Assembly (NCBI RefSeq): GCF_001644665.1
Contig: NZ_CP011393.1
Span: forward strand, 1,572,001 to 1,636,000
DNA: 64,000 bases
Source of the DNA: Fervidobacterium pennivorans
Lineage (GTDB): Bacteria; Thermotogota; Thermotogae; Thermotogales; Fervidobacteriaceae
Direction: 5' to 3'
Shown: positions 9,481 through 20,935 of the stretch, one piece after another
How the letters are laid out: each line of letters starts with the position of its first letter
Numbering within the stretch: position 1 is the first letter of the stretch
The notes under the pieces: generated by a model
What the model was told of the DNA's origin: nothing
The model's database searches: none
Seen by the model: the letters and a program-made list of their open reading frames with translations, nothing else
Made by a program: the position numbers and the translations under genes

Positions 9481-9507
9481 AAAAAACCGGGGACATTTCG
9501 TCCCCGG
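9481..9507 (-). terminator. Terminator after the ferritin-like gene
   Basis: The stem CCGGGGA with TCCCCGG is followed on the minus strand by six T residues. It ends the Mrp-Mbx operon and its downstream ferritin-like gene. Confidence 0.85.
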
Positions 9508-9536
9508 CTAATTGTTCAATGCTATTGTTTTGTCTA

Positions 9537-10022
9537 TTAGAAAGGATAAAATCCAAGCTCAAGATTGTTTCTTTCAATTATTGCTTTGATTTGTTCCTCG
9601 ATTATCTTTTTGTGTCCTTCTTCCCAGTCCCTCAAGATTGTCAAAATGCTCTTCACTTTCTCGTTTGTCTCTTTCTCAGCTGCCTTACCGTAAAATTCCA
9701 TGAAGTCTTTTTCAATCAAGTAAGCCATTCTTAAAACAGAAAGGTCTGCGATGTCATCTTCTGGTGATGTTTCTGAAATTTTCTGCCCTTCGTATCGTGA
9801 TTTGAAATAGCTTGCGCTTTGACTGGGGATTTCGGGTATTTCTCTACCTTCTTCAAGAGATTTCATAAGGTTTCGGATGAATTCAGTGTGTTCTTTTTCC
9901 ATTTGTGCAAGGTATTCAAAAATCTCAGCGACAGATTTGTTTTTAACTTCCTGCTTTTTCGATGTGTAGAATTTGTAGCCCTCGATTTCGAATTGTTCCG
10001 CTAATTTAAGAACATCGTACAT
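9537..10022 (-). CDS. Ferritin-like (rubrerythrin-type) diiron protein
   Basis: This protein of about 161 residues appears to be a four-helix bundle with carboxylate motifs spaced as in rubrerythrins: EQFEIEGYKFY, MEKEHTEFI, EKDFMEFYGKAAEKE and WEEGHKKII. There is no C-terminal rubredoxin domain. Such proteins commonly reduce peroxide or handle iron in anaerobes. The ATG at 10022 has AGGAGGT seven bases upstream. It lies 43 bases after the last Mbx gene with no terminator between, so it is probably co-transcribed with it. Its electron donor could be the neighbouring flavoprotein or a free rubredoxin; this is inference. Confidence 0.85.
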   Translation of the reverse strand: MYDVLKLAEQFEIEGYKFYTSKKQEVKNKSVAEIFEYLAQMEKEHTEFIRNLMKSLEEGREIPEIPSQSASYFKSRYEGQKISETSPEDDIADLSVLRMAYLIEKDFMEFYGKAAEKETNEKVKSILTILRDWEEGHKKIIEEQIKAIIERNNLELGFYPF

Positions 10023-10065
10023 GTAGTTCACCTCCTAAAATAAGGATAAGATGTGATTATCTTTT

Positions 10066-11943
10066 TTATTTTTGTTCCCTCAGATACTGGTCAATACCCC
10101 TTGCTGCCCAATATCCGTCCGCAACACCATGGATTATATCTGGTCCATTAACTATGTCTCCACCAGCGAACAACCATGGAATTTGAGTCTGCCTAAGGTT
10201 GTTTGTCAGTATCCTTGGACCAACAAATTGGAGCTTGGATTTCCATTCCTCTGGTAGATATGAATAATCCGGTGCTTGACCAATAGCTTCAATTATCATA
10301 TCACCATCGTAGTACTGGACTGTCGATTCGTCAAATTTTGGGTTAAACCTTCTGTTTTCATCGAATACTTCGACACATTTGACACATTCAATACCTTTGA
10401 TGTTATCTTTGTCGTCAAAGACTACCCTTCGTGGACCCCAACCCGGGCAGATTTTGACGCCTTCCTCAATAGCTTCTTCGATTTCTTCCATGTCAGCAGG
10501 CATTTCGTCGTGTGTTCTTTCAAGACAAGTGACAGTTACGTTTACCTCTCCGTATTTCATCTTTTGTAACCTTGCCATGCTCCTTGCAATATCCATTGCA
10601 ACATTTCCACCACCAATGACTACGACACGTTTTGGTATTTTCGGCTCAGGACCTTCACCACGTAGGTAATCTCTGATAGCTCTTAGCAGTGGCAGAGCTT
10701 GGACAACATCTGGATGGTCCGAACCTGGTATCTTCGTTGACCTACCGAGTGTCAAACCTGTTGCCAAAAAGATTGCGTCGTATTTGTTTTTCAATTCATC
10801 AAAAGTGATGTCTTTCCCGACAGCGACACCTGTGAAAATCCTTACACCAAGTGATTCGATGAATGCGATGTCTCTATCAAGAGCCTCATCTGGAAGCCTG
10901 TATCTAGGGATACCGTATCTCATTACACCACCAGGACGGTTAAGCGCTTCGTAAATATCAACCTCGTAGCCCATCGTCGCTAAAAAGTAAGCTGCAGACA
11001 ATCCAGCAGGTCCACTACCTACGATAGCAACCTTTTTGGGTTGTTTCTTGACATCGAAGGTCACAATCTCATGCCATTTCTCAGCCGGAACACTATCTGT
11101 TATGTATCTCTTCAGCCATCTAATGGCGATTGGTTCTCCCCTGTGACTAATTGCACAGACTTCTTCACAGCGATGCGTACAGACTCTGCCACAGACACCG
11201 GAAAGTGGGTTCGCACCAAAATTGTTTTGGTCCTCCACGCCCTTAAGGAGCCATTTTAGTGCGTCTTGCAAATTATCTTTCCAGATAGCCTTTATGTATT
11301 GTGGAATTTGCATGTGCTCAGGACACCTGTCAACACATATACCGCATTCTACACATCTTGCCGCTTCCGCTATAGCTTGTTCTTTGCTATATGCTTTTAC
11401 AAATTCGACAAAGGAATTTACGCGTTCTTCTGCTGATAACATTTCCGGCATTACTCTGTCAAGGTCGAGAAGTTCACTATTCTCATCCCTGGTCCAGCCA
11501 ATTTTGATTTCCTCTGGGTTTTTCTTGAGCAACCCCTTTTCAGTTGGTGCAAAGTAGAAATCTTCGGGGTTAGGAGAAACGAAGATGTATTCCCTGGTCA
11601 TTTTCAGCGAACCTGTTGTACAAATGTCAACACACATCGCACAGAAACTGCAGCGTCCGTAGTCTATAGTTGGTCTCTGCGGTTTCATACCGTATTCTTG
11701 TTTCATATCCGGTACTTCGACCATCGTTATTGCGTCTGTCGGACATATCTTCGCACAGGTCCCACAACCAATGCATTTTTCCCAATCGTTCACATGGAAG
11801 CCCCTGTATCTTGGTGCTGCTTCTCTCTGTTCTTTCGGAACACGGATGGTAACCGGTTTTTCGAAAAGGTTCTTCCAAGCAATCAAGGGCGCGAAGAAAC
11901 TTTTCTTTGGGGTTTCTGTTCTATTTTCTTTTATTTCCATCAT
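10066..11943 (-). CDS. MbxN/NuoI-like ferredoxin subunit fused to a GltD/NfnB-like flavoprotein
   Basis: The protein has about 625 residues in two parts. Residues 1-150 resemble NuoI/MbxN, with two 4Fe-4S motifs (CIGCGTCAKICP near 59-70 and CSFCAMCVDIC near 100-110). From about 190 on it resembles glutamate-synthase small subunit and NfnB. That part has a cysteine-rich Fe-S region (CVECGICVDRCP, then CGRVCTHRCEEVC), an FAD fold (VAIVGSGPAGLSAAYF near 307-322), a nucleotide fold (VVVIGGGNVAMDIARSM near 442-458) and the final FAD motif GGDIVNGPDIIHGVADG. I infer that it passes electrons between ferredoxin, the membrane arm and NAD(P)H. The start ATG 11943 has GGGAGG five bases upstream; 11940 is also possible. 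Confidence 0.88.
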   Translation of the reverse strand: MMEIKENRTETPKKSFFAPLIAWKNLFEKPVTIRVPKEQREAAPRYRGFHVNDWEKCIGCGTCAKICPTDAITMVEVPDMKQEYGMKPQRPTIDYGRCSFCAMCVDICTTGSLKMTREYIFVSPNPEDFYFAPTEKGLLKKNPEEIKIGWTRDENSELLDLDRVMPEMLSAEERVNSFVEFVKAYSKEQAIAEAARCVECGICVDRCPEHMQIPQYIKAIWKDNLQDALKWLLKGVEDQNNFGANPLSGVCGRVCTHRCEEVCAISHRGEPIAIRWLKRYITDSVPAEKWHEIVTFDVKKQPKKVAIVGSGPAGLSAAYFLATMGYEVDIYEALNRPGGVMRYGIPRYRLPDEALDRDIAFIESLGVRIFTGVAVGKDITFDELKNKYDAIFLATGLTLGRSTKIPGSDHPDVVQALPLLRAIRDYLRGEGPEPKIPKRVVVIGGGNVAMDIARSMARLQKMKYGEVNVTVTCLERTHDEMPADMEEIEEAIEEGVKICPGWGPRRVVFDDKDNIKGIECVKCVEVFDENRRFNPKFDESTVQYYDGDMIIEAIGQAPDYSYLPEEWKSKLQFVGPRILTNNLRQTQIPWLFAGGDIVNGPDIIHGVADGYWAARGIDQYLREQK

Positions 11944-11955
11944 TGGCACCTCCCA

Positions 11956-13059
11956 TTACCTATCAATTTCTGGTGCACAAACGCCCATTGTATCAAGCCA
12001 GATAGGTACATCGTCTATCCTTGTTCCAGGTAGTAGATGTTCAACGCCATACAAGCCTTGCGGATAGGAAGCGCCTCTGACTGCCACTCTGTAAGGTGTC
12101 TCCCCACCGTTGGATACGACAAGATAGCCATATTCTCCACGCGTAGATTCAACACGCGCATATGCCATTCCTTTCGGAACCCTAATTCTTAAACCGTTTC
12201 CATCACCGATTTTTGTGTTCACAGGACCAGATGGCATCTTCTCAAGTGCTTGCCTGATTATCCTGATACTCTGCCTTATTTCCTTTGGTTTTAGGCTTAT
12301 TCTTGCTAGTGCGTCACCTTCTGTAGCAGTCGGGATTTCGAATTCTACCTTGTCATAGAATAAGTAGGGGTCAATCTTTCTGATGTCGTATGGAACTCCG
12401 GTTGCCCTCAGGCCTATACCTGTTACGCCAAGTTTCAAACAGGTTTCTGTATCTATCTTTGCAATACCTTTGAGCCTTGTATGGAGTATTCTATTTTTAA
12501 GGATGAACGTTTCGTATTCTGGCATTCTTTGTTCCAAGTAATCCATGAGTTTCATAATCTTTTCCTCAAGTTTTGGTGGTAAATCTTTTCTTACCCCACC
12601 AGGTATGATGTACATATGGTAAACCCTTGCTCCTGTCAATTCTTCAAAGATGTCAAGTACTTTGTCCCTATCAGCAACGCTCCAAAACATACTTGTATAC
12701 ATTCCTAAAGGTCCTCCGATACCTCCAAAGGACCATAGATGGTTTGCAATTCGTGCAAGTTCAAGAACTATCATCCTTATCCATTGTGCCCTCTCAGGTA
12801 CTTCCACTTTGGCTATCTTTTCAATTGCCATTGCATAACAAGCTTCATTTATATCAGGCTCAGGCACACATATTCTTGGTATCAATGCAAGATTCTGATA
12901 CCAAAGTCTTCTTTCCATCAATTTCTCAAACCCACGGTGTAAAAAACCTGGTAGTGGTCTTGCCTTAACAACGATATCTCCTTCGACGTACATGTGAACA
13001 CTGAAGTTACCGTGCATTCCAGGGTGATTTGGACCAAAGAACAGTTTGACCTCACCCAT
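11956..13059 (-). CDS. NuoD/MbxL-like (hydrogenase large-subunit related) protein
   Basis: This 367-residue homologue of complex I NuoD and the large subunit of group 4 NiFe hydrogenases forms the base of the quinone/hydrogenase-site cavity. The family start FFGPNHPGMHGNFSVHM and GFLHRGFEKLMERR are clear. NiFe enzymes need two CxxC pairs. Here the first is reduced to C64 with glutamate at 67 (ICVPEP), and the last to C361 with glutamate at 364 (VCAPEID). A NiFe centre is therefore not expected, as in the archaeal Mbx/Mbs complexes. The start overlaps the end of the NuoC-like gene. Confidence 0.92.
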   Translation of the reverse strand: MGEVKLFFGPNHPGMHGNFSVHMYVEGDIVVKARPLPGFLHRGFEKLMERRLWYQNLALIPRICVPEPDINEACYAMAIEKIAKVEVPERAQWIRMIVLELARIANHLWSFGGIGGPLGMYTSMFWSVADRDKVLDIFEELTGARVYHMYIIPGGVRKDLPPKLEEKIMKLMDYLEQRMPEYETFILKNRILHTRLKGIAKIDTETCLKLGVTGIGLRATGVPYDIRKIDPYLFYDKVEFEIPTATEGDALARISLKPKEIRQSIRIIRQALEKMPSGPVNTKIGDGNGLRIRVPKGMAYARVESTRGEYGYLVVSNGGETPYRVAVRGASYPQGLYGVEHLLPGTRIDDVPIWLDTMGVCAPEIDR

Positions 13060-13615
13060 TTATATCACCCCTCGTATTTTCCAAATCTGCTCTTATTATC
13101 TTTGCTTCATGTATGGCATCTTTCTCGTATTCTCTGTCAGGGAAGTGTTCCTTAGAATATTTCAATGGGTCGAAATCTTTCCTCAATGGTGGTAAATCGT
13201 TCCAGAGTTCAAGAATGAGCGGTAGCTTGCATCTTTCGTTTCCTTCAAACTCTACACCAAAGAATTCATGGACATCGCGTTCATAATACTCAGCCGTTGG
13301 CCACATATCTTTCACAGTATAGAACACAGGTTTGTCTCTATCGATAAACGTCGAGACAAGGAAGGTCACACCGTTGGACCAATTAAAGAGTATGTAGACA
13401 AGTTCAAACTTTTTCTCTTCAATCCAGTCAACGCAAGTAAGAATTGACAAGTGTGAATAACCTGATTCTTTTAGAAAAGCAAGCAGAGGAATAGCCTTGT
13501 CTTTTTCTGCTATAAGTTTGTATTGCCTTTCTGCAATGTCTTCGACTTTGACATTGAAAAGTTCTTTAGCCTTCCCAAGTACTTCAGTAACAGGTTTATT
13601 CGTGGAATTCGTCAT
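13052..13615 (-). CDS. NuoC/MbxK-like subunit
   Basis: This protein of about 187 residues belongs to the 30-kDa complex I subunit family, which scaffolds the Fe-S subunits. The signature is YYERDVHEFFGVEFEGN, followed by LPPLRKDFDP. I use ATG 13615 because GAGGTGA lies six bases upstream; this gives a 20-base overlap with the preceding NuoB-like gene. The C-terminus overlaps the NuoD-like start. Confidence 0.92.
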   Translation of the reverse strand: MTNSTNKPVTEVLGKAKELFNVKVEDIAERQYKLIAEKDKAIPLLAFLKESGYSHLSILTCVDWIEEKKFELVYILFNWSNGVTFLVSTFIDRDKPVFYTVKDMWPTAEYYERDVHEFFGVEFEGNERCKLPLILELWNDLPPLRKDFDPLKYSKEHFPDREYEKDAIHEAKIIRADLENTRGDING

Positions 13616-14141
13616 GGACAATCACCTCGCCGAGGCTTCTAATTTGATTTTGCTTGTACCATTCGTAATTTTCTTTGTAGCGCTTCCAACCGTTAGCCTC
13701 ACCTTTTCTAATCATTTCCATCAGGGTATTAAAAGCATTCAATATTGCCTCTGGTCTTGGCATACAGCCAGCGATGTAAAGGTCAACAGGTATATAATAG
13801 TCGAGTCTGTTGATTGTGGAGTAGGAATCATAGTAAATTCCTCCGTTTATGGTGCAAGAGCCAAAACCGATAACATATTTTGGGTCAGCCATTTTTTCGT
13901 ATGTATATATAACCCTTCTTAATGTCTTTGCGCTAAGGTATCCGGTTATAAGGAATATATCAGCTTGCCTTGGGGTTGCCATAGGTCCCATTCCAAGACG
14001 TTCCATATCGAATCGTGAAGTCATTGATGGTGGTAGTTCTACCGCACCACACCCGGTACAGTAATGCAACATCCACATTGACCTACTTCTTAGTTGGTCA
14101 GCAATCTTTTCCCACACACTTCTTTCGTCTATCTGAGCCAT
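13596..14141 (-). CDS. NuoB/MbxJ-like Fe-S subunit
   Basis: This 181-residue homologue of NuoB and the hydrogenase small subunit holds the proximal N2-type 4Fe-4S cluster. The ligand pattern is visible: YCTGCGAVE (two cysteines), FGSCTINGG and AGCMPRPE. It hands electrons from the ferredoxin subunit to the NuoD-like cavity. The ATG has GGAGGTG six bases upstream. Confidence 0.93.
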   Translation of the reverse strand: MAQIDERSVWEKIADQLRSRSMWMLHYCTGCGAVELPPSMTSRFDMERLGMGPMATPRQADIFLITGYLSAKTLRRVIYTYEKMADPKYVIGFGSCTINGGIYYDSYSTINRLDYYIPVDLYIAGCMPRPEAILNAFNTLMEMIRKGEANGWKRYKENYEWYKQNQIRSLGEVIVHDEFHE

Positions 14142-14170: not shown

Positions 14171-15070
14171 TTAAAATACCCAACCATTTACAACGAAGAA
14201 CGCTTGCACGAAAGCAAGTAATATCGGAACCGTCCAGTAGAACGCAACTGCTTGTTCTATTCTGAACCTTGGTAAAACTGCTGAAACCATTACTGCAAAT
14301 ATCCAAACTAAGAAATATTTGAGCAAGAACACAAAATATGTTCCTCCGCCAAGGAAGAAGTTTACAAAAAGGCTTATTTCGATGAATTCCATAAAGGTGT
14401 TCATGAGGATCAGTAATCCCATATATTTCGCAGAAAGTTCAACCATGGGACCAGATGCAATTTCGGCTGGTGCAATAGGTGCTTCAAATGGCTCTTTACC
14501 GAGCATACCCTGGAGCGAAATGAGAGCAACAAGCGCACCTATTGGGAATTTAACTATATTCCATTGACCAGACTGTGCTTGCGCCATTATTATGTTGGAA
14601 ATGTTCCCCGTTTTGTGATAGAACAATAATGTGGTTATCACTATCAGATATGGTACTTCGTAGCCAAGCATAAGGGTTAAGGCCCTAGCAACACCTATAG
14701 ATGCCCAAGGGTTTCCAGTTCCAACCATACCCATTGCCATACCAAGCGCGCCGACTGTGAAAAGGTATGCGATAACGAAGAAATTATCAAGACCTGGGAA
14801 TGCAACAAGATTACCAAGAGGCACGAACGAAAGCGTTGCAATTACTCCTCCGAGTGCCATAAGCACACCGAAGTCGAAAATCCAACCGTGCGTCCAACCA
14901 TGTTTTGTTAATGTTTTGAAAACATCAATGAAATTCTGATACCAAGGTGGACCGTATCTTTTTTGGATACGTGCGGTTATCTTTCTACCTAGTCCTTCAA
15001 ATGTTAATCCAAAGAAGAATGCAGTCAATAAAACAGCGGTCACTCTTCCAACAGTTGCCAATGTCGTCAT
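14171..15070 (-). CDS. NuoH/MbxM-like membrane subunit
   Basis: This 299-residue membrane protein connects the peripheral arm to the antiporter-like arm. It has about eight hydrophobic helices and the NuoH-type loops: RITARIQKRYGPPWYQN near the N-terminus, and EAPIAPAEIASGPMVELSAKYMG, whose acidic residues are part of the E-channel. It starts four bases after the preceding stop. In the canonical complex I it lines the quinone chamber; here the acceptor is unknown. Confidence 0.9.
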   Translation of the reverse strand: MTTLATVGRVTAVLLTAFFFGLTFEGLGRKITARIQKRYGPPWYQNFIDVFKTLTKHGWTHGWIFDFGVLMALGGVIATLSFVPLGNLVAFPGLDNFFVIAYLFTVGALGMAMGMVGTGNPWASIGVARALTLMLGYEVPYLIVITTLLFYHKTGNISNIIMAQAQSGQWNIVKFPIGALVALISLQGMLGKEPFEAPIAPAEIASGPMVELSAKYMGLLILMNTFMEFIEISLFVNFFLGGGTYFVFLLKYFLVWIFAVMVSAVLPRFRIEQAVAFYWTVPILLAFVQAFFVVNGWVF

Positions 15071-15073
15071 CGC

Positions 15074-16897
15074 TTACCACCTCACCCACATGATTAACGC
15101 AAGAACTATTGCTGCCCAGAAGATGTAAGCCGAAGCTGTTCTGCGAGCTAAATAGTCGACAAATTTCCCGAAGGCTTTCAGGGCGTTCACAATGGATAAG
15201 TACCAGTCTTCGAACGATGGATGACCTTCATATTCTCTTTCAAGGAAAGCATAGAACTTAGTTGCATAGTGGTAAAGGTCATAATTATGCAGGAATTCTC
15301 CTGATGTGTACTGGTCCTCCAAAGGTATCTTCTTTCCCTTTGGCATGAGCATATAAATAACTGCTGCGATTGTAAAACCAACTGCGAACATGACAAAGAC
15401 TATCCATGTGTCCCAATAGCCCATGCTTGTTTTTAACACGGTGCCTTCGAATTCAAATGGTTTCATGCCGAATTCTTTTTGGACATTGGTAATCCATACG
15501 AGCACTTGCTGCGGAAATACACCCCAAAGAACTGTTAATGCAACAAGGATTATCATTGGAATTTGCATAATTATAGGTACTTCTTTAACTTCTTTGTGTT
15601 TGCTCTTTAGCTGACCAAGGAAGACACCAGCAAGTGGTCTGAAGACATAGAGGAATGAACCGATACTTCCTATGAACACAAACATTTCTGTAACGAACAT
15701 GCCTTTTGATACGAGAGCCTGGAAAATCATCCACTTTGAGATAAATCCACTTGTCGGTGGAATTCCAGCTAGCGAGATAATGCCAACAAGGTATGTGACA
15801 AATGTTACAGGCATTCTATGAATAAGTCCACCCATTTCGTCAATCTTTGTCGTTCCCGTTCTGTAAACAACCGCTGCGAATGAAAGGAATATCATCGTTG
15901 CGGCAAGCGCGTGATTGATTACATGGAACAAACCACCTGCGTAACCAACCTGGTGAAGCATAGCCAAACCTATAAGTATATAGCCACCGTTTGCAACAGT
16001 AGAGTATGCTATCAACATTTTCATATCGTTTTGCTTTATTGCCATCAACGTTCCAACAAGGATGGAGATATTACCAAGCCATATAAGTATGTAGGAAAGG
16101 ATATTTACTCCGTTGTAGAACTCTGAAAACATGTTTGCTATTGGAAAAACACTCAAAATTAGCGCGATTAAGTAAGACCCCATCTTCACAAGTTGACCAG
16201 AAAGGACTGCACTGAACGTATCTGGCGCGTTGCCATGGACGTTTCTGAGCCACACGTGGAGTGGGAATATACCGCTTTTTGCTATACCTGCCGCAAGCAA
16301 CAGTAGAACGACAGCCCATCTAAATCCAGTCGAAGCGTTTTGAATATGTTGAGCGATTTCGAATATATCAAATGTTCCATATCTTTCGTAGAGCATGAAG
16401 ACACCGTATAGGAACAGATAAGTACCTATCGAGCTTATGACTACGTACCAAATTGTCGCTTTTCTTGACTCTTCTTTCCCCATAGGAACTATAAAGAGAG
16501 ATGCAAGAACAGCAATTTCCCAGAATATGTAAAGCACTATTAAATGAGCAGAGAAGAACACACCAAGTGTACCGAGCAATGTTAATATAGAAAGTGCATT
16601 GAACGCTGCTGGACGTTTCGCTTTTGAAATCCACGAAATGTTGAAAAAGCCATAACATGCAAATACTATCAGGGTGACAATTGAAAGGTATTTAGATAGT
16701 GCTGTGAATTTTAGAACACCTTCAAAACCGAATAGTGACTCTGTCACTCCTGTCGGCATTCCCCAAAGAGCGTAAAGTCCGAAAATGGATAATGCAAAAA
16801 GCACAATAGGTCCCAGATGCTTATTTATCTTCGACAGGAAGTAACCGATAAGCGTTCCTACTGCAAGATAGATTATAAGACTTTGCAGACTTTGCAT
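15074..16897 (-). CDS. MrpD/NuoL-family antiporter-like subunit (long form, MbxH-like)
   Basis: This membrane protein of about 607 residues has some fourteen hydrophobic segments and the proton-conducting antiporter fold. Visible functional residues include the helix-5 glutamate (YIFWEIAVLASLF) and the helix-7 lysine in AAGIAKSGIFPLHVWLRN. The C-terminal extension after GKKIPLEDQYTSGE ends in one more helix, as in MbhH/MbxH-type subunits. The ATG at 16897 lies two bases after the upstream stop and eight bases after GGGGG. It probably transports Na+ or H+ across the membrane, driven by electron transfer. Confidence 0.88.
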   Translation of the reverse strand: MQSLQSLIIYLAVGTLIGYFLSKINKHLGPIVLFALSIFGLYALWGMPTGVTESLFGFEGVLKFTALSKYLSIVTLIVFACYGFFNISWISKAKRPAAFNALSILTLLGTLGVFFSAHLIVLYIFWEIAVLASLFIVPMGKEESRKATIWYVVISSIGTYLFLYGVFMLYERYGTFDIFEIAQHIQNASTGFRWAVVLLLLAAGIAKSGIFPLHVWLRNVHGNAPDTFSAVLSGQLVKMGSYLIALILSVFPIANMFSEFYNGVNILSYILIWLGNISILVGTLMAIKQNDMKMLIAYSTVANGGYILIGLAMLHQVGYAGGLFHVINHALAATMIFLSFAAVVYRTGTTKIDEMGGLIHRMPVTFVTYLVGIISLAGIPPTSGFISKWMIFQALVSKGMFVTEMFVFIGSIGSFLYVFRPLAGVFLGQLKSKHKEVKEVPIIMQIPMIILVALTVLWGVFPQQVLVWITNVQKEFGMKPFEFEGTVLKTSMGYWDTWIVFVMFAVGFTIAAVIYMLMPKGKKIPLEDQYTSGEFLHNYDLYHYATKFYAFLEREYEGHPSFEDWYLSIVNALKAFGKFVDYLARRTASAYIFWAAIVLALIMWVRW

Positions 16898-16899
16898 TA

Positions 16900-18276
16900 T
16901 CACATACCCCCTTTCAGTATCGTGTCGAAGTATGTTTTGAAATCAAAGATGTGAGATGCTATCTTGTCTGTGTAGGCAGTGATTAAATCTGGCATAAAAC
17001 CTGCTATAACGAGTGCGAGAGCAAATAACAAAACAACGACTTGCGCTCCGAATGGAAGTTCCATTTCTTCATTTTCGCTATCGTCATCGACATACCAGAG
17101 GTCAACGTTCCATTTAATTAAGTATCCTGCTTCAATAACTGTTGCAACAAGTAGTATGGCCGGGAGTATGTAATCCCCTGCCTCAAAAAGCGCAGTGAGT
17201 AAGTTAATCTTAGCCCAAAAACCAGCAGTTAGCGGGAATCCAATGAGTGATATTGAAGCAAGCGAGAACGCAATACCTGCAACTGAATTGTTTTTGAAAC
17301 CTTTGTGGTTGAGGTAACCATAAATTGTAAAAAGAATGAACATGGAGATTGCTTCGTTGAAAAGGTATAGATAAGCTGCGGATGCAATTTTTTCTACTCC
17401 AAGTGCACCGGAAGAGAGCGCTGCCATAACCGTACTTGCTCCTGCAATCGATGCGTATGCAACGGTCCTGCCCAATGTTTTTTGTTTCATTGCTGCAAGC
17501 TGAGCAAATACTATCGATATCAGCGAGAGTACATAGACCGGCATGGACTTGACAGGTTCCAAAATATTAAAGAATATCCTAGAGAACAAGTAAAAGATAG
17601 CAACTGTTACCGCACTGCCAAGAGCAACGGGTGTAACTGTTGAACCGTTAGAATAAACATCAGGAGCCCAAAGTCCCAGTGGTAGTATCTTTAACTCAAC
17701 AAGGAGGGCTATAACAATCAAAATACCTGCAACTTGAACATATTCTGGTGAAGCGATGAAACCTGCATATGCCATATTGAGTGTCCCAGCATAGACATAC
17801 ATCGAAACAACACCTATAAGGTAAAGTATCCCGGCAACAGAACCGAAGATAAGGTATTTAAACGCAGCGTAAGAATTCTTGTTCTGAGACGCCAACACAT
17901 AAGCAACTGCTGCGATGATTTCAAGGAAGACGAACGAGTTGAAGAAATCGCCTGTTAAGAGCAAGCCATTCAACGCAGCCGTTAAAACAAGCAAAAGTAC
18001 GCCAAGTTTGTCTTCATACGTTGCTGAGATGGAGAGTGCTAATAACATTAAGTTAACAAAAATAAGGAACGGATAGCTAACATTATCAAGTACAAGAACA
18101 ATACCGTACGCCGCTGGCCATTTGCCTATTTCTGTAACCTGACCTGGATGAACAAAACCAAGCAAAAGCACTAGGTTGAAAAGTGCAACGAATGGGAGAA
18201 TATATCTACTCAGTTTTGGAAATGCAACAGTTGCAAACCCAAATGCAAGAGGAACAGCAACGAGCAACGCTATCAT
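16900..18276 (-). CDS. MrpD/NuoN-family antiporter-like subunit (short form)
   Basis: This second antiporter-like protein has 458 residues and about twelve to fourteen helices. It keeps the key ionisable residues: the glutamate in FNSFVFLEIIAAVAYVL and the lysine in LVELKILPLGLWAPDVY. Two unequal MrpD-like subunits side by side are the arrangement seen in Mbx/Mbs complexes (H and H'). A short acidic linker (DDDSENEEMELP) precedes the last two helices. The start overlaps the MrpC-like stop by four bases. Confidence 0.88.
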   Translation of the reverse strand: MIALLVAVPLAFGFATVAFPKLSRYILPFVALFNLVLLLGFVHPGQVTEIGKWPAAYGIVLVLDNVSYPFLIFVNLMLLALSISATYEDKLGVLLLVLTAALNGLLLTGDFFNSFVFLEIIAAVAYVLASQNKNSYAAFKYLIFGSVAGILYLIGVVSMYVYAGTLNMAYAGFIASPEYVQVAGILIVIALLVELKILPLGLWAPDVYSNGSTVTPVALGSAVTVAIFYLFSRIFFNILEPVKSMPVYVLSLISIVFAQLAAMKQKTLGRTVAYASIAGASTVMAALSSGALGVEKIASAAYLYLFNEAISMFILFTIYGYLNHKGFKNNSVAGIAFSLASISLIGFPLTAGFWAKINLLTALFEAGDYILPAILLVATVIEAGYLIKWNVDLWYVDDDSENEEMELPFGAQVVVLLFALALVIAGFMPDLITAYTDKIASHIFDFKTYFDTILKGGM

Positions 18277-18617
18277 TCTATCACTTCCTTTGCTGCACGA
18301 ATTTCATCAGCGTCAACTGAGCCATGCTCTTCGTGTATGTGTACCAATAGCATAGCAGCAACTGCCAATGTTCCAACGCTTATAACAATTGCTGTGAGAA
18401 CGAGAGCTTGTGGGAGCGGGTCAACGAAATTAGCTAAGGGAGTTACAGAAGAATAGATAGGCGCTTCCGCACCGTGTAAATACCCAAGTGACACGATGAA
18501 GATGTTTACTGCAGTGTCTATTATTGTTAACGAGACAAGTTGTTTAAACAGATTTTTCTGGGAGACTATTCCATACAAGCCGATACCGAAGAGAATAAAG
18601 GCAATGTAGTATATCAT
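18273..18617 (-). CDS. mrpC: MrpC/NuoK-like subunit
   Basis: This 114-residue protein has three transmembrane helices. The family signature DPLPQALVLTAIVIS precedes the third helix, as in MrpC and NuoK. It should sit between the MrpB-like and MrpD-like subunits of the sodium/proton module. It overlaps both neighbours by four bases. The polar tail with HIHEEHGSVDADEIRAAKEV is cytoplasmic. Confidence 0.9.
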   Translation of the reverse strand: MIYYIAFILFGIGLYGIVSQKNLFKQLVSLTIIDTAVNIFIVSLGYLHGAEAPIYSSVTPLANFVDPLPQALVLTAIVISVGTLAVAAMLLVHIHEEHGSVDADEIRAAKEVIE

Positions 18618-19342
18618 GCTTTATCCCCCTCCCTCATATCAGATACAAGACTCGACAACTCGGCTCCAACTTTGAAACCAATAAGCGAGTAGACAATAGG
18701 CACTACACCTGCACTAAAGAGATTTCCGATAGTTCCTGTTGGGAGGAAGTTTGCGAGGAAAACACCAACAACTGCCATACCAATAAGCCCAACGAGCACA
18801 TAGCCAGAACCAGCGATTTGTTCTGTGTGTTTTGCAACATCTGTGACTTTAAACTCGTTTTTGGCAAGCATTAATAACAAAACACCTAAAGCGATAACAG
18901 TACCTCCTGGGAATCCGCCACCTGGAGTAAGGTGACCGTGGATGAATATATAAGCACCAAAGAGTAGTATCAGAGGGAAAATTATACCCGTTGCGACGGA
19001 TAAGACCTTGTGTTCTTCGAATTCAATTCTTCGCTTTTTGATATTTGCGAGAATTCCTACTCCAAGTGCCGCTGCAAAGAGGACTGTAACTTCTCCAAGC
19101 GTGTCGAATGAACGGTAATTCACAACGATAGATGTAACAACATTTGCACTGCCATCTTCTAACCCTTTGGATTTTTTATACTCAACAGGTTGGTAGCTTG
19201 TTGTCGTTGATTTGCTGATGTAGTCGAATGATACCCTTCTGTACATATCGATGTTTCCAAATTTCGGTAGCGTTGGAAAGTAAGTTCCTAAAAAGAAGTA
19301 AAGAAATACAACACTTATAAGTACTGCCCAAATTCTTCTCAT
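18614..19342 (-). CDS. MrpA C-terminal segment fused to MrpB (MbhE-MbhF-like)
   Basis: This 242-residue membrane protein combines two parts. Residues 1-105 include a first helix and NVVTSIVVNYRSFDTLGE, the end of MrpA (MbhE-like). Residues 110-242 are MrpB-like, with the motif HGHLTPGGGFPGG. In Mrp antiporters the first part is the C-terminus of the large MrpA; group 4 hydrogenases and Mbx keep it as separate small genes or as this fusion. Four-base overlaps tie it to its neighbours. Confidence 0.85.
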   Translation of the reverse strand: MRRIWAVLISVVFLYFFLGTYFPTLPKFGNIDMYRRVSFDYISKSTTTSYQPVEYKKSKGLEDGSANVVTSIVVNYRSFDTLGEVTVLFAAALGVGILANIKKRRIEFEEHKVLSVATGIIFPLILLFGAYIFIHGHLTPGGGFPGGTVIALGVLLLMLAKNEFKVTDVAKHTEQIAGSGYVLVGLIGMAVVGVFLANFLPTGTIGNLFSAGVVPIVYSLIGFKVGAELSSLVSDMREGDKA

Positions 19343-19620
19343 TTCTTTTCACCTGCCTTCATTCTGAAAAGGGCGAAAATCATAACGGCGCTCGCGAGAC
19401 CAGAGCCCACGGCAGCTTCAGTAATAGCAACATCTGGAGCTTTCAAGACAATGAAAAGCAAAACCGAAAGAAGACTTACAGCTGAAAGAGCAAGAACCGA
19501 ATCAAAGATTCTCCTTGCTTCGACTGCAAATATCGAGAAAACAACCATAAGCCCACCTACTAGGTAAAATATCCAGTCGATAAGTTCAAGATTGGTAAAG
19601 AATTCTACGAGTTTACTCAT
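19339..19620 (-). CDS. MrpA C-terminal domain protein (MbhD-like, DUF4040)
   Basis: This small protein of about 93 residues has three helices and the stretch RIFDSVLALSAVSLLSVLLF...KAPDVAITEAAVGSGL, typical of the MrpA domain that contacts MrpG and MrpB. The start at ATG 19620 lies inside the end of mrpG (8-base overlap). The longer frame to 19680 has no ribosome site. It belongs to the ion-translocating half of the complex. Confidence 0.85.
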   Translation of the reverse strand: MSKLVEFFTNLELIDWIFYLVGGLMVVFSIFAVEARRIFDSVLALSAVSLLSVLLFIVLKAPDVAITEAAVGSGLASAVMIFALFRMKAGEKK

Positions 19621-19984
19621 GATTCTCACCACCGTTTCTTTGACTTTCTTGATTTGTAAGTATCGGAGCAATTTCATCAACTGTTGTTTCTTTACAGACA
19701 GGTACTTTGTTTTTGTATGCAGCTCTAATCATAACGGAAGAGGCAACCGGGTTTGTGAGCGCCACAAAAACAATCAGCAACAAAGATTTACCAAGGAAAG
19801 ATGGGTTTAGTATTCCAACTCCAAGCACAACTGAGAATGTACCGAGTGTTGTTGCTTTCGTTGATGCTTGCAATTTAGTGTAGAAATCAGGCATTCTCAA
19901 AAGACCGAGCCCAGCGTAAAAATAGAAAAGTGCACCGAGCCCTGTCAATGTGTAGCCTATTATTTGCTGGGTTAATTCTGTCAT
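19613..19984 (-). CDS. mrpG: MrpG subunit
   Basis: This 123-residue protein has three helices and the diagnostic LGLLRMPDFYTKLQASTKATTLG. MrpG belongs to the minimal Mrp module shared by cation/proton antiporters and Mbh/Mbx complexes. It overlaps mrpF by four bases. Confidence 0.92.
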   Translation of the reverse strand: MTELTQQIIGYTLTGLGALFYFYAGLGLLRMPDFYTKLQASTKATTLGTFSVVLGVGILNPSFLGKSLLLIVFVALTNPVASSVMIRAAYKNKVPVCKETTVDEIAPILTNQESQRNGGENHE

Positions 19985-20298
19985 TTCGCATCACCATCCA
20001 TAGATTTTGTTTCAGCACAATTGCTGGGTGTGTTCGCTTGATTTTCCAAATACCTTGCGAAGACTATGGTTTCTATGAACCCAAGCAATCCGTAGAGTAT
20101 TGCGATATCCATGTACATATTGTTCTTAAACATATATGCCAAAAGTGAAATGAGCCCAATTATCATTACATTCATCATGTCAATTGCCATAAGTCTATCG
20201 AAACTCGTTGGTCCTATAAGAAACCGCAAAAGTGAGAAGAAAACTCCAAGACCTGTAAGACCGAAGACGATAAGATCGATTAAGAGGCTTCCACTCAT
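19981..20298 (-). CDS. mrpF: MrpF subunit
   Basis: This 105-residue protein has three helices and the MrpF signature FLIGPTSFDRLMAIDMMNV after the first helix. It overlaps mrpE and mrpG by four bases on either side. With MrpE and MrpG it forms the part of the complex thought to handle sodium. Confidence 0.92.
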   Translation of the reverse strand: MSGSLLIDLIVFGLTGLGVFFSLLRFLIGPTSFDRLMAIDMMNVMIIGLISLLAYMFKNNMYMDIAILYGLLGFIETIVFARYLENQANTPSNCAETKSMDGDAK

Positions 20299-20774
20299 TC
20301 GTACACCCCCTTCAGTATGCGTTCAAACCTTCCATAGAACTCTTTCTTAGACTCCTCATCGGTTCCCTTAACATCAATCCAGTGAACATAGAGTTCATCA
20401 TCTTTAATATCAACAGTAATCGTTCCAGGAGTGAGCGTTATAGAATTCGCGAGCGTCAGCTTTGCAACATCGCCCTTTAAACCTGTTTTAATTCGAACAA
20501 AGCCGGGTTTCACCCTTACTTTAGGTTCAACAACCCTTGAAGCTACGTCAAGGTTTGCTTTCAACATCTCCCAAACAAAGACCGGAACGTAAATGAAAAG
20601 AAATTTGAACAACCCAGGAATAAACTTCCCGTTGAGCTTGATGTTGTAGTACTTTTTGAATATCAATGAGACAACAAACGAGACGATGAGACCTACAATG
20701 ATTTCCTGAGGGTCAATCGTCCAGGTGAGAATCAACCAAGTGAAAAATGTCACAATAAAAACTGAAAAACTCAC
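20295..20774 (-). CDS. mrpE: MrpE subunit, first gene of the Mrp-Mbx operon
   Basis: The protein has about 159 residues, two N-terminal helices and a soluble domain. WTIDPQEIIVGLIVSFVVS and the C-terminal NSITLTPGTITVDIKDDELYVHWI are typical of MrpE. The start is uncertain. I take GTG 20774, seven bases after GGGAGG; ATG 20780 is too close to that site, and GTG 20789 lies upstream of it. The promoter lies about 130 bases upstream and has the repeats described separately. Confidence 0.88.
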   Translation of the reverse strand: MSFSVFIVTFFTWLILTWTIDPQEIIVGLIVSFVVSLIFKKYYNIKLNGKFIPGLFKFLFIYVPVFVWEMLKANLDVASRVVEPKVRVKPGFVRIKTGLKGDVAKLTLANSITLTPGTITVDIKDDELYVHWIDVKGTDEESKKEFYGRFERILKGVYE

Positions 20775-20873
20775 AAACATCCCTCCCACTCAGGATTAAG
20801 ATATTTTTCACAAGATACCCAAAAACGAAAAATGAGACTTTTAAGTAGTTTTATAGTCTTTCTTTGTGAAATG

Positions 20874-20906: not shown

Positions 20907-20935
20907 ATTTTAACCGCGTATTTTAAAAGTGTCAA
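20907..20935 (-). promoter_or_regulatory. Main promoter of the Mrp-Mbx operon
   Basis: On the minus strand a perfect TTGACA (20930-20935) is followed after exactly 17 bases by TAAAAT (20907-20912), the best promoter match in the window. The leader would be about 125 bases. Confidence 0.7.

Follow-up and report, generated by a model that had tools for sequence, protein, structure and literature searches.

An MbsN-like subunit fused to a GltD-type flavoprotein in the Mbx operon of Fervidobacterium pennivorans, a candidate entry point for NADH

The fusion gene and its operon

The window, a stretch of 64,000 nucleotides from the single-contig genome of Fervidobacterium pennivorans (2.06 Mb), contains a 13-gene Mbx operon on its minus strand, the last gene of which encodes an MbxN-GltD fusion of 625 amino acids (10066..11943). 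This open reading frame runs from an ATG at 11943 to a stop codon ending at 10066 with no internal stops, and is preceded, just downstream of mbxL, by the ribosome-binding site GGAGGTG. Its NuoI/MbsN-like N-terminal domain (residues 1-130; 11554..11943, minus strand) carries C57, 60, 63 and 67 and C98, 101, 104 and 108, for two [4Fe-4S] clusters. Among solved structures, residues 12-124 or thereabouts match MbsN/NuoI-type chains, best of all 6u8y_N (112 bits), while residues 161-625 match NfnL (5jca_L, 277 bits), GltD and dihydropyrimidine dehydrogenase. The latter region comprises a GltD/NfnL-type Fe-S domain (residues 171-290; 11074..11433, minus strand), with C197, 200, 203 and 207, C251, 255, 259 and 263, and K278 at 11110-11112, followed by Rossmann domains for the binding of FAD and nucleotide (residues 301-625; 10066..11043, minus strand), with Leu474-Glu475 at 10519-10524. 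Pfam detects the [4Fe-4S] dicluster, Fer4_20 and Pyr_redox_2 domains, and the protein belongs over its full length to NF010590/PRK13984 (1153.5 bits against a curated cut-off of 946, over residues 9-625), so that the fusion is an already catalogued family, named ‘putative oxidoreductase’. The first-pass annotation had described a NuoI-like domain continuing in one frame into a GltD/NfnB-like flavoprotein with Fe-S motifs, on which the open reading frame and the structure and family matches agree; the Pfam and structure matches likewise support its assignment of an FAD- and pyridine-nucleotide-binding Fe-S flavoprotein to an Mbx/Mbs-type NuoI-like subunit.

An assembly or frameshift artefact was ruled out, because the one-frame fusion recurs in many genomes: 25 further genomes have a matching 13-gene operon with this fusion as its last gene, and relatives up to 98% identical also have it. 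Across 26 fusions, all eight cysteines of the NuoI/MbsN-like domain are invariant, as are all 16 of the four [4Fe-4S] clusters together; the FAD and nucleotide motifs are invariant or nearly so.

The other twelve genes also lie on the minus strand. Preceding the fusion are those for the NuoD-like MbxL (11956..13059), with equivalents of MbsL C85/C385; the NuoC-like MbxK (13052..13621), identified by Pfam and structure matches; the NuoB-like MbxJ (13596..14141), with an MBS-type CTGC motif and proximal-cluster ligands; and the NuoH-like MbxM (14171..15070), with conserved acids including E203 and E211. Two antiporter subunits follow, one MbxH'-like with the full E/K/K/H/K set (15074..16903), the other MbxH-like without the lysine matching MbsH K250 (16900..18276). 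Pfam then identifies MrpC/NuoK-like MbxG (18273..18617), MbxE with MbhE and MnhB-like parts (18614..19342) and MbhD-like MbxD (19339..19680), and family profiles match MrpG-like MbxC (19613..19984), MrpF-like MbxB (19981..20298) and MrpE-like MbxA (20295..20789). All loci examined share the order MrpE-F-G-MbhD-E-MrpC-antiN-antiM-H-J-K-L-fusion, to the extent that their contigs cover it. Upstream of MbxA is a promoter-like TTGACA-17-TAAAAT (20907..20935, minus strand), a pattern match only, of a kind whose total count is near chance. At the other end, a rubrerythrin-like reading frame (9537-10031), which adjoins the fusion in several Thermotogota, separates it from a strong terminator-like hairpin (9485..9509, minus strand; again a pattern match only) that lies 3' of both.

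Catalytic site, membrane arm and distribution

Among structures of the complex I superfamily, the chains of P. furiosus MBS (6u8y) are the best solved match for J, K, L, M, H and H', as well as for the fused N-domain. Bit scores against the MBS chain, versus MBH or complex I, are 244 versus 121 for J, 372 versus 252 for L, 185 versus 78 for M, and 112 versus 63 for the N-domain. MbxJ aligns with 6u8y_J without gaps through the C25-TG-C28 motif; the proximal-cluster ligands C28, C93 and C123 (MbsJ numbering) are kept in all 26 loci, and the non-ligand C25 in 25 of them, as are the MbxL equivalents of C85/C385. A divergent complex (locus L066, 2031-4180) has lost the equivalents of MbsJ C25 and MbsL C85/C385 and retains the three cluster ligands. 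Judged by these residues, the proximal cluster of Mbx is of the MBS type, with three cysteine ligands and a shortened CTGC motif. With these three ligands, the MBS cluster keeps one open iron and is the site at which polysulfide is reduced, an activity shown for the P. furiosus enzyme (PMC7684303). Membership of complex I itself was rejected, as Mbx has CTGC in place of adjacent cysteines at N2, and no NuoEFG NADH module was found within the operon, which was the scope of that search.

The Mbx operon shares with MBS the 13 subunits (A-N) that include an Mrp-type module. MBS further has an intact E/K/H charged axis in two antiporter-like subunits, of which only one was found here: the proton-channel set is complete in all 25 MbxH'-like sequences, whereas in the MbxH-like subunit the TM8 lysine (MbsH K250) is gone from every one of the 24 aligned sequences of bacterial Mbx, and H330 from most. 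MbxM retains acids at 203 and 211, the positions listed as charged-axis acids of MbsM. With K250 lost from one antiporter-like subunit and the other intact, bacterial Mbx probably retains a single canonical H+ channel beside the Mrp-like module.

The host is a bacterium, the closest named relative found being Fervidobacterium sp. UBA5837 (82% identity), and the fusion is typical of its phylum, Thermotogota. Of 103 Thermotogota genomes, 55 have it above the family cut-off; the number rises to 69, about two thirds of the sample, when divergent or truncated matches are counted. MBS-type MbxJ was likewise found in 69 genomes of this sample; both occur in 68, and one without the other in two draft genomes. 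All 53 fusion sequences form a single clade in the tree (support 0.97). Among the named controls, the sole carrier was a genome we take to be T. maritima; Mbx is absent from the Thermotogota family f2 and from a genome that is presumably T. petrophila. A 2008 paper attributes the T. maritima mbx operon, given there as twelve genes, to horizontal acquisition from the Thermococcales (PMC2246101).

This distribution bears on whether the complex might reduce sulfane sulfur with ferredoxin, as P. furiosus MBS does, and exchange electrons with NADH through the flavoprotein only as an uncoupled side exit, or valve. The conserved MBS arm is compatible with such an arrangement, and T. maritima MBX has already been proposed as a ferredoxin:S0 enzyme (PMC9431562). 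Nevertheless, it seems quite improbable: of the 70 Thermotogota genomes that have the fusion or MbxJ, 68 keep the flavoprotein, and among 398 genomes sampled from another phylum, four carry the fusion and the identical four carry MbxJ. This retention alongside the partner genes, combined with the near-invariance of the 16 cysteines and of the FAD and nucleotide motifs, argues for the flavoprotein being a core part of the complex.

The flavoprotein and its nucleotide

Where NfnB has a Glu ligand to its FAD-proximal cluster, every fusion compared has a lysine (K278 in the window protein), which aligns with K170 of StnC. The FAD of StnC is non-bifurcating and passes electrons down a chain of clusters (PMC10482914). 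The same lysine in the fusions would imply plain two-to-one electron transfer, which suggests the flavoprotein serves simple electron delivery, not bifurcation. Were the enzyme instead confurcating or bifurcating, with NADH and reduced ferredoxin used jointly or split at the FAD, and with polysulfide or another acceptor at the chamber, the small gap between NADH and polysulfide would presumably be eased; the GltD/NfnL relatives include the bifurcating Nfn, and the equivalent of NfnL R201 is conserved in the fusions. This is very improbable, given both the StnC-like lysine and the absence from the Mbx operon of an NfnA partner with its [2Fe-2S] cluster and NAD site. The fusion was also rejected as an Nfn transhydrogenase, on the grounds of this missing NfnA, of Lys278 in place of the Glu ligand, and of Leu474-Glu475 in place of an arginine pair. 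NfnAB is encoded twice in the host genome, in separate operons (L099, 3798-6055; L100, 3428-5721).

In NfnB, the phosphate of NADP is held by two arginines (PMC6405883). We infer that these correspond to the YRR motif after beta-strand 2. Reading YRR as an NADP-phosphate motif is, we assume, consistent with adrenodoxin reductase. YRR is retained in both Nfn of the host genome and in the fusions of one early-branching family (f8), whereas 45 of the 53 fusion sequences (the window protein being counted twice) have Leu-Glu at this point, comprising all Thermotogota fusions outside f8 and three from another phylum. E. coli PreT, which is NAD-linked, has ARE and no YRR; four non-Thermotogota fusions (L010-L013) have GGGD...ARK for GGGN...LE, partly like PreT. 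NADH-specific GltD-type modules would be expected to have an acidic residue after beta-strand 2 and to lack a phosphate-binding arginine pair; in the window protein Leu474-Glu475 is directly followed by Arg476, a residue that varies among relatives. An AlphaFold2 model built from six sequences, of low confidence (mean pLDDT 54.5) and used solely for the strand positions of the nucleotide domain, places Leu474-Glu475 just past the strand 469-473. Hence the replacement of YRR by Leu-Glu predicts that the window protein uses NADH, having descended from an ancestral NADPH type, and NADPH would be the nucleotide of the f8 fusions. This narrows the first-pass annotation, which had left the nucleotide open. 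In f8 genomes (L068, 15190-17471; L069, 2081-4326; L070; L071), nfnA-nfnB lies directly downstream of the YRR-keeping Mbx fusion.

The same annotation had further suggested a ferredoxin:NAD(P)+ oxidoreductase activity to which ion pumping is coupled, with a function like that of Rnf. A ferredoxin-type input domain and a nucleotide flavoprotein are indeed joined in one chain, and the position of nfnAB next to the fusion, immediately after it, in one family hints at a link with the NADP pool. A ferredoxin:NAD(P)+ role was earlier proposed for archaeal mbx, as cited in PMC3608648, so the idea is already published; in Thermoanaerobacter, clade 3 is reported with mbx, and only clades 1 and 2, those without complete mbx, are listed with Rnf (PMC3608648). 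However, the flavoprotein sits on the electron-entry subunit, and therefore flow from ferredoxin to NAD(P) could bypass the proximal cluster and chamber, the coupling site of this superfamily; the residues kept there in 26 loci would then serve no purpose, and P. furiosus MBS reduces polysulfide (PMC7684303). The host genome also has a separate Rnf operon at another locus, and Rnf co-occurs with the fusion both within the phylum, where nearly every Thermotogota genome with the fusion has RnfC, and outside it, where six of six such genomes have RnfD. Hence, although a flavoprotein on an Mbx/Mbs NuoI-like subunit stands, an Rnf-like function is unlikely. The idea that Mbx substitutes for Rnf within Thermotogota was rejected on this co-occurrence, and the identity of the complex with Rnf was rejected because none of its 13 subunits is like RnfABCDGE.

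A proposed route for electrons, and related systems

The reading towards which we lean, with modest confidence, is that the fusion complex is an NADH-fed, and probably also ferredoxin-fed, polysulfide reductase that moves H+ or Na+. We infer the direction, substrates, nucleotide, pumping and ion of Mbx as follows. The fusion would be the subunit through which electrons enter a bacterial complex of the MBS type, its C-terminal FAD oxidising NADH in this clade, or NADPH in the one early-branching family. Electrons would then pass singly down the fused chain, first through its two GltD-type [4Fe-4S] clusters and next through its two MbsN-type ones, and reach the proximal [4Fe-4S] cluster of MbxJ, the open iron of which may reduce polysulfide or sulfane sulfur. 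The energy would be delivered to the one intact H+ channel, in the MbxH'-like subunit, and to the Mrp-type Na+/H+ module, with ferredoxin probably feeding the same cluster chain. This route is favoured as the only one that both uses all the conserved parts and crosses the coupling chamber. In T. maritima, mbxA is up 4.36-fold with S0 (PMC9431562), which fits a polysulfide reductase.

Several points weigh on the other side. The driving force from NADH to polysulfide is small, and NADH by itself may barely suffice for pumping; GltD-type modules can also work in either direction, which counts against a NADH-fed reductase. Sulfur reduction is reported generally for Thermotogota, and the inhibition of Fervidobacterium by H2 is not relieved by S0, which again counts against it (PMC7795431). 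As the Thermotogota without Mbx belong to this generally sulfur-reducing phylum, Mbx would be dispensable for sulfur reduction. This, together with the small driving force, makes ferredoxin a likely co-donor.

A tentative and rather doubtful history would have an NADPH-type GltD module joining the entry subunit of a sulfane-reducing ancestor and later switching to NADH, with one of two proton channels decaying to suit the smaller driving force, leaving a respiratory complex that now uses NADH, with ferredoxin, to reduce polysulfide. The NADH module was most likely acquired independently of that of complex I. If this is true, ion-pumping machines driven by NADH evolved on two or more occasions within the complex I superfamily, by way of NADH modules that are not related to each other, and Thermotogota, widely used as hydrogen producers, gain an energy-conserving path from NADH to polysulfide in addition to Rnf, Nfn and the soluble NAD(P)H sulfur reductase. 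Both the lysine at the cluster-ligand position and the switch from YRR to Leu-Glu make precise predictions, open to testing in proteins from thermophiles that can be cultured.

That the fusion is catalogued, that the complex is Mbx, and that it has a proposed sulfur role in T. maritima are already known. The open-access literature yielded no description of the role of the fused flavoprotein, nor of the NADH-input assignment, the StnC-like lysine, the YRR-to-LE switch or the decayed second channel.

Among known systems, the PRK13984/NF010590 family is identical to the window protein in full-length domain architecture, and is named only as a putative oxidoreductase. The 13-subunit MBX of T. maritima is encoded by an orthologous operon, fusion included, and is treated as ferredoxin:sulfur in PMC9431562, in the passages found of which the flavoprotein is unmentioned. 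P. furiosus MBS (PDB 6U8Y) has the same 13 subunit types, MbsJ/MbsL cysteines, chamber acids and Mrp-type Na+ module, but its MbsN lacks a flavoprotein, and the equivalent of K250 is lost from the window's MbsH-like subunit. StnC of the Sporomusa Stn transhydrogenase (PDB 8OH5) shares the GltD-type FAD input, the lysine at the FAD-proximal cluster and a long Fe-S chain, although Stn is a soluble, bifurcating complex that works with NADPH and has no membrane arm. NfnB/NfnL is alike in fold and in Fe-S and FAD motifs, at about 37-41% identity to the fusion flavoprotein, whereas the fusion has no NfnA partner, a lysine for the Glu ligand, and no NADP arginines. Rnf possibly has ferredoxin and NAD as common substrates, yet shares no homologous subunit and has its own locus in the host genome. 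Respiratory complex I has homologous membrane and peripheral arms and, we suggest, a comparable NADH module feeding NuoI; that of Mbx is of the GltD type rather than NuoEFG, its proximal site has CTGC rather than adjacent cysteines, and its membrane arm includes an Mrp-type Na+ module.
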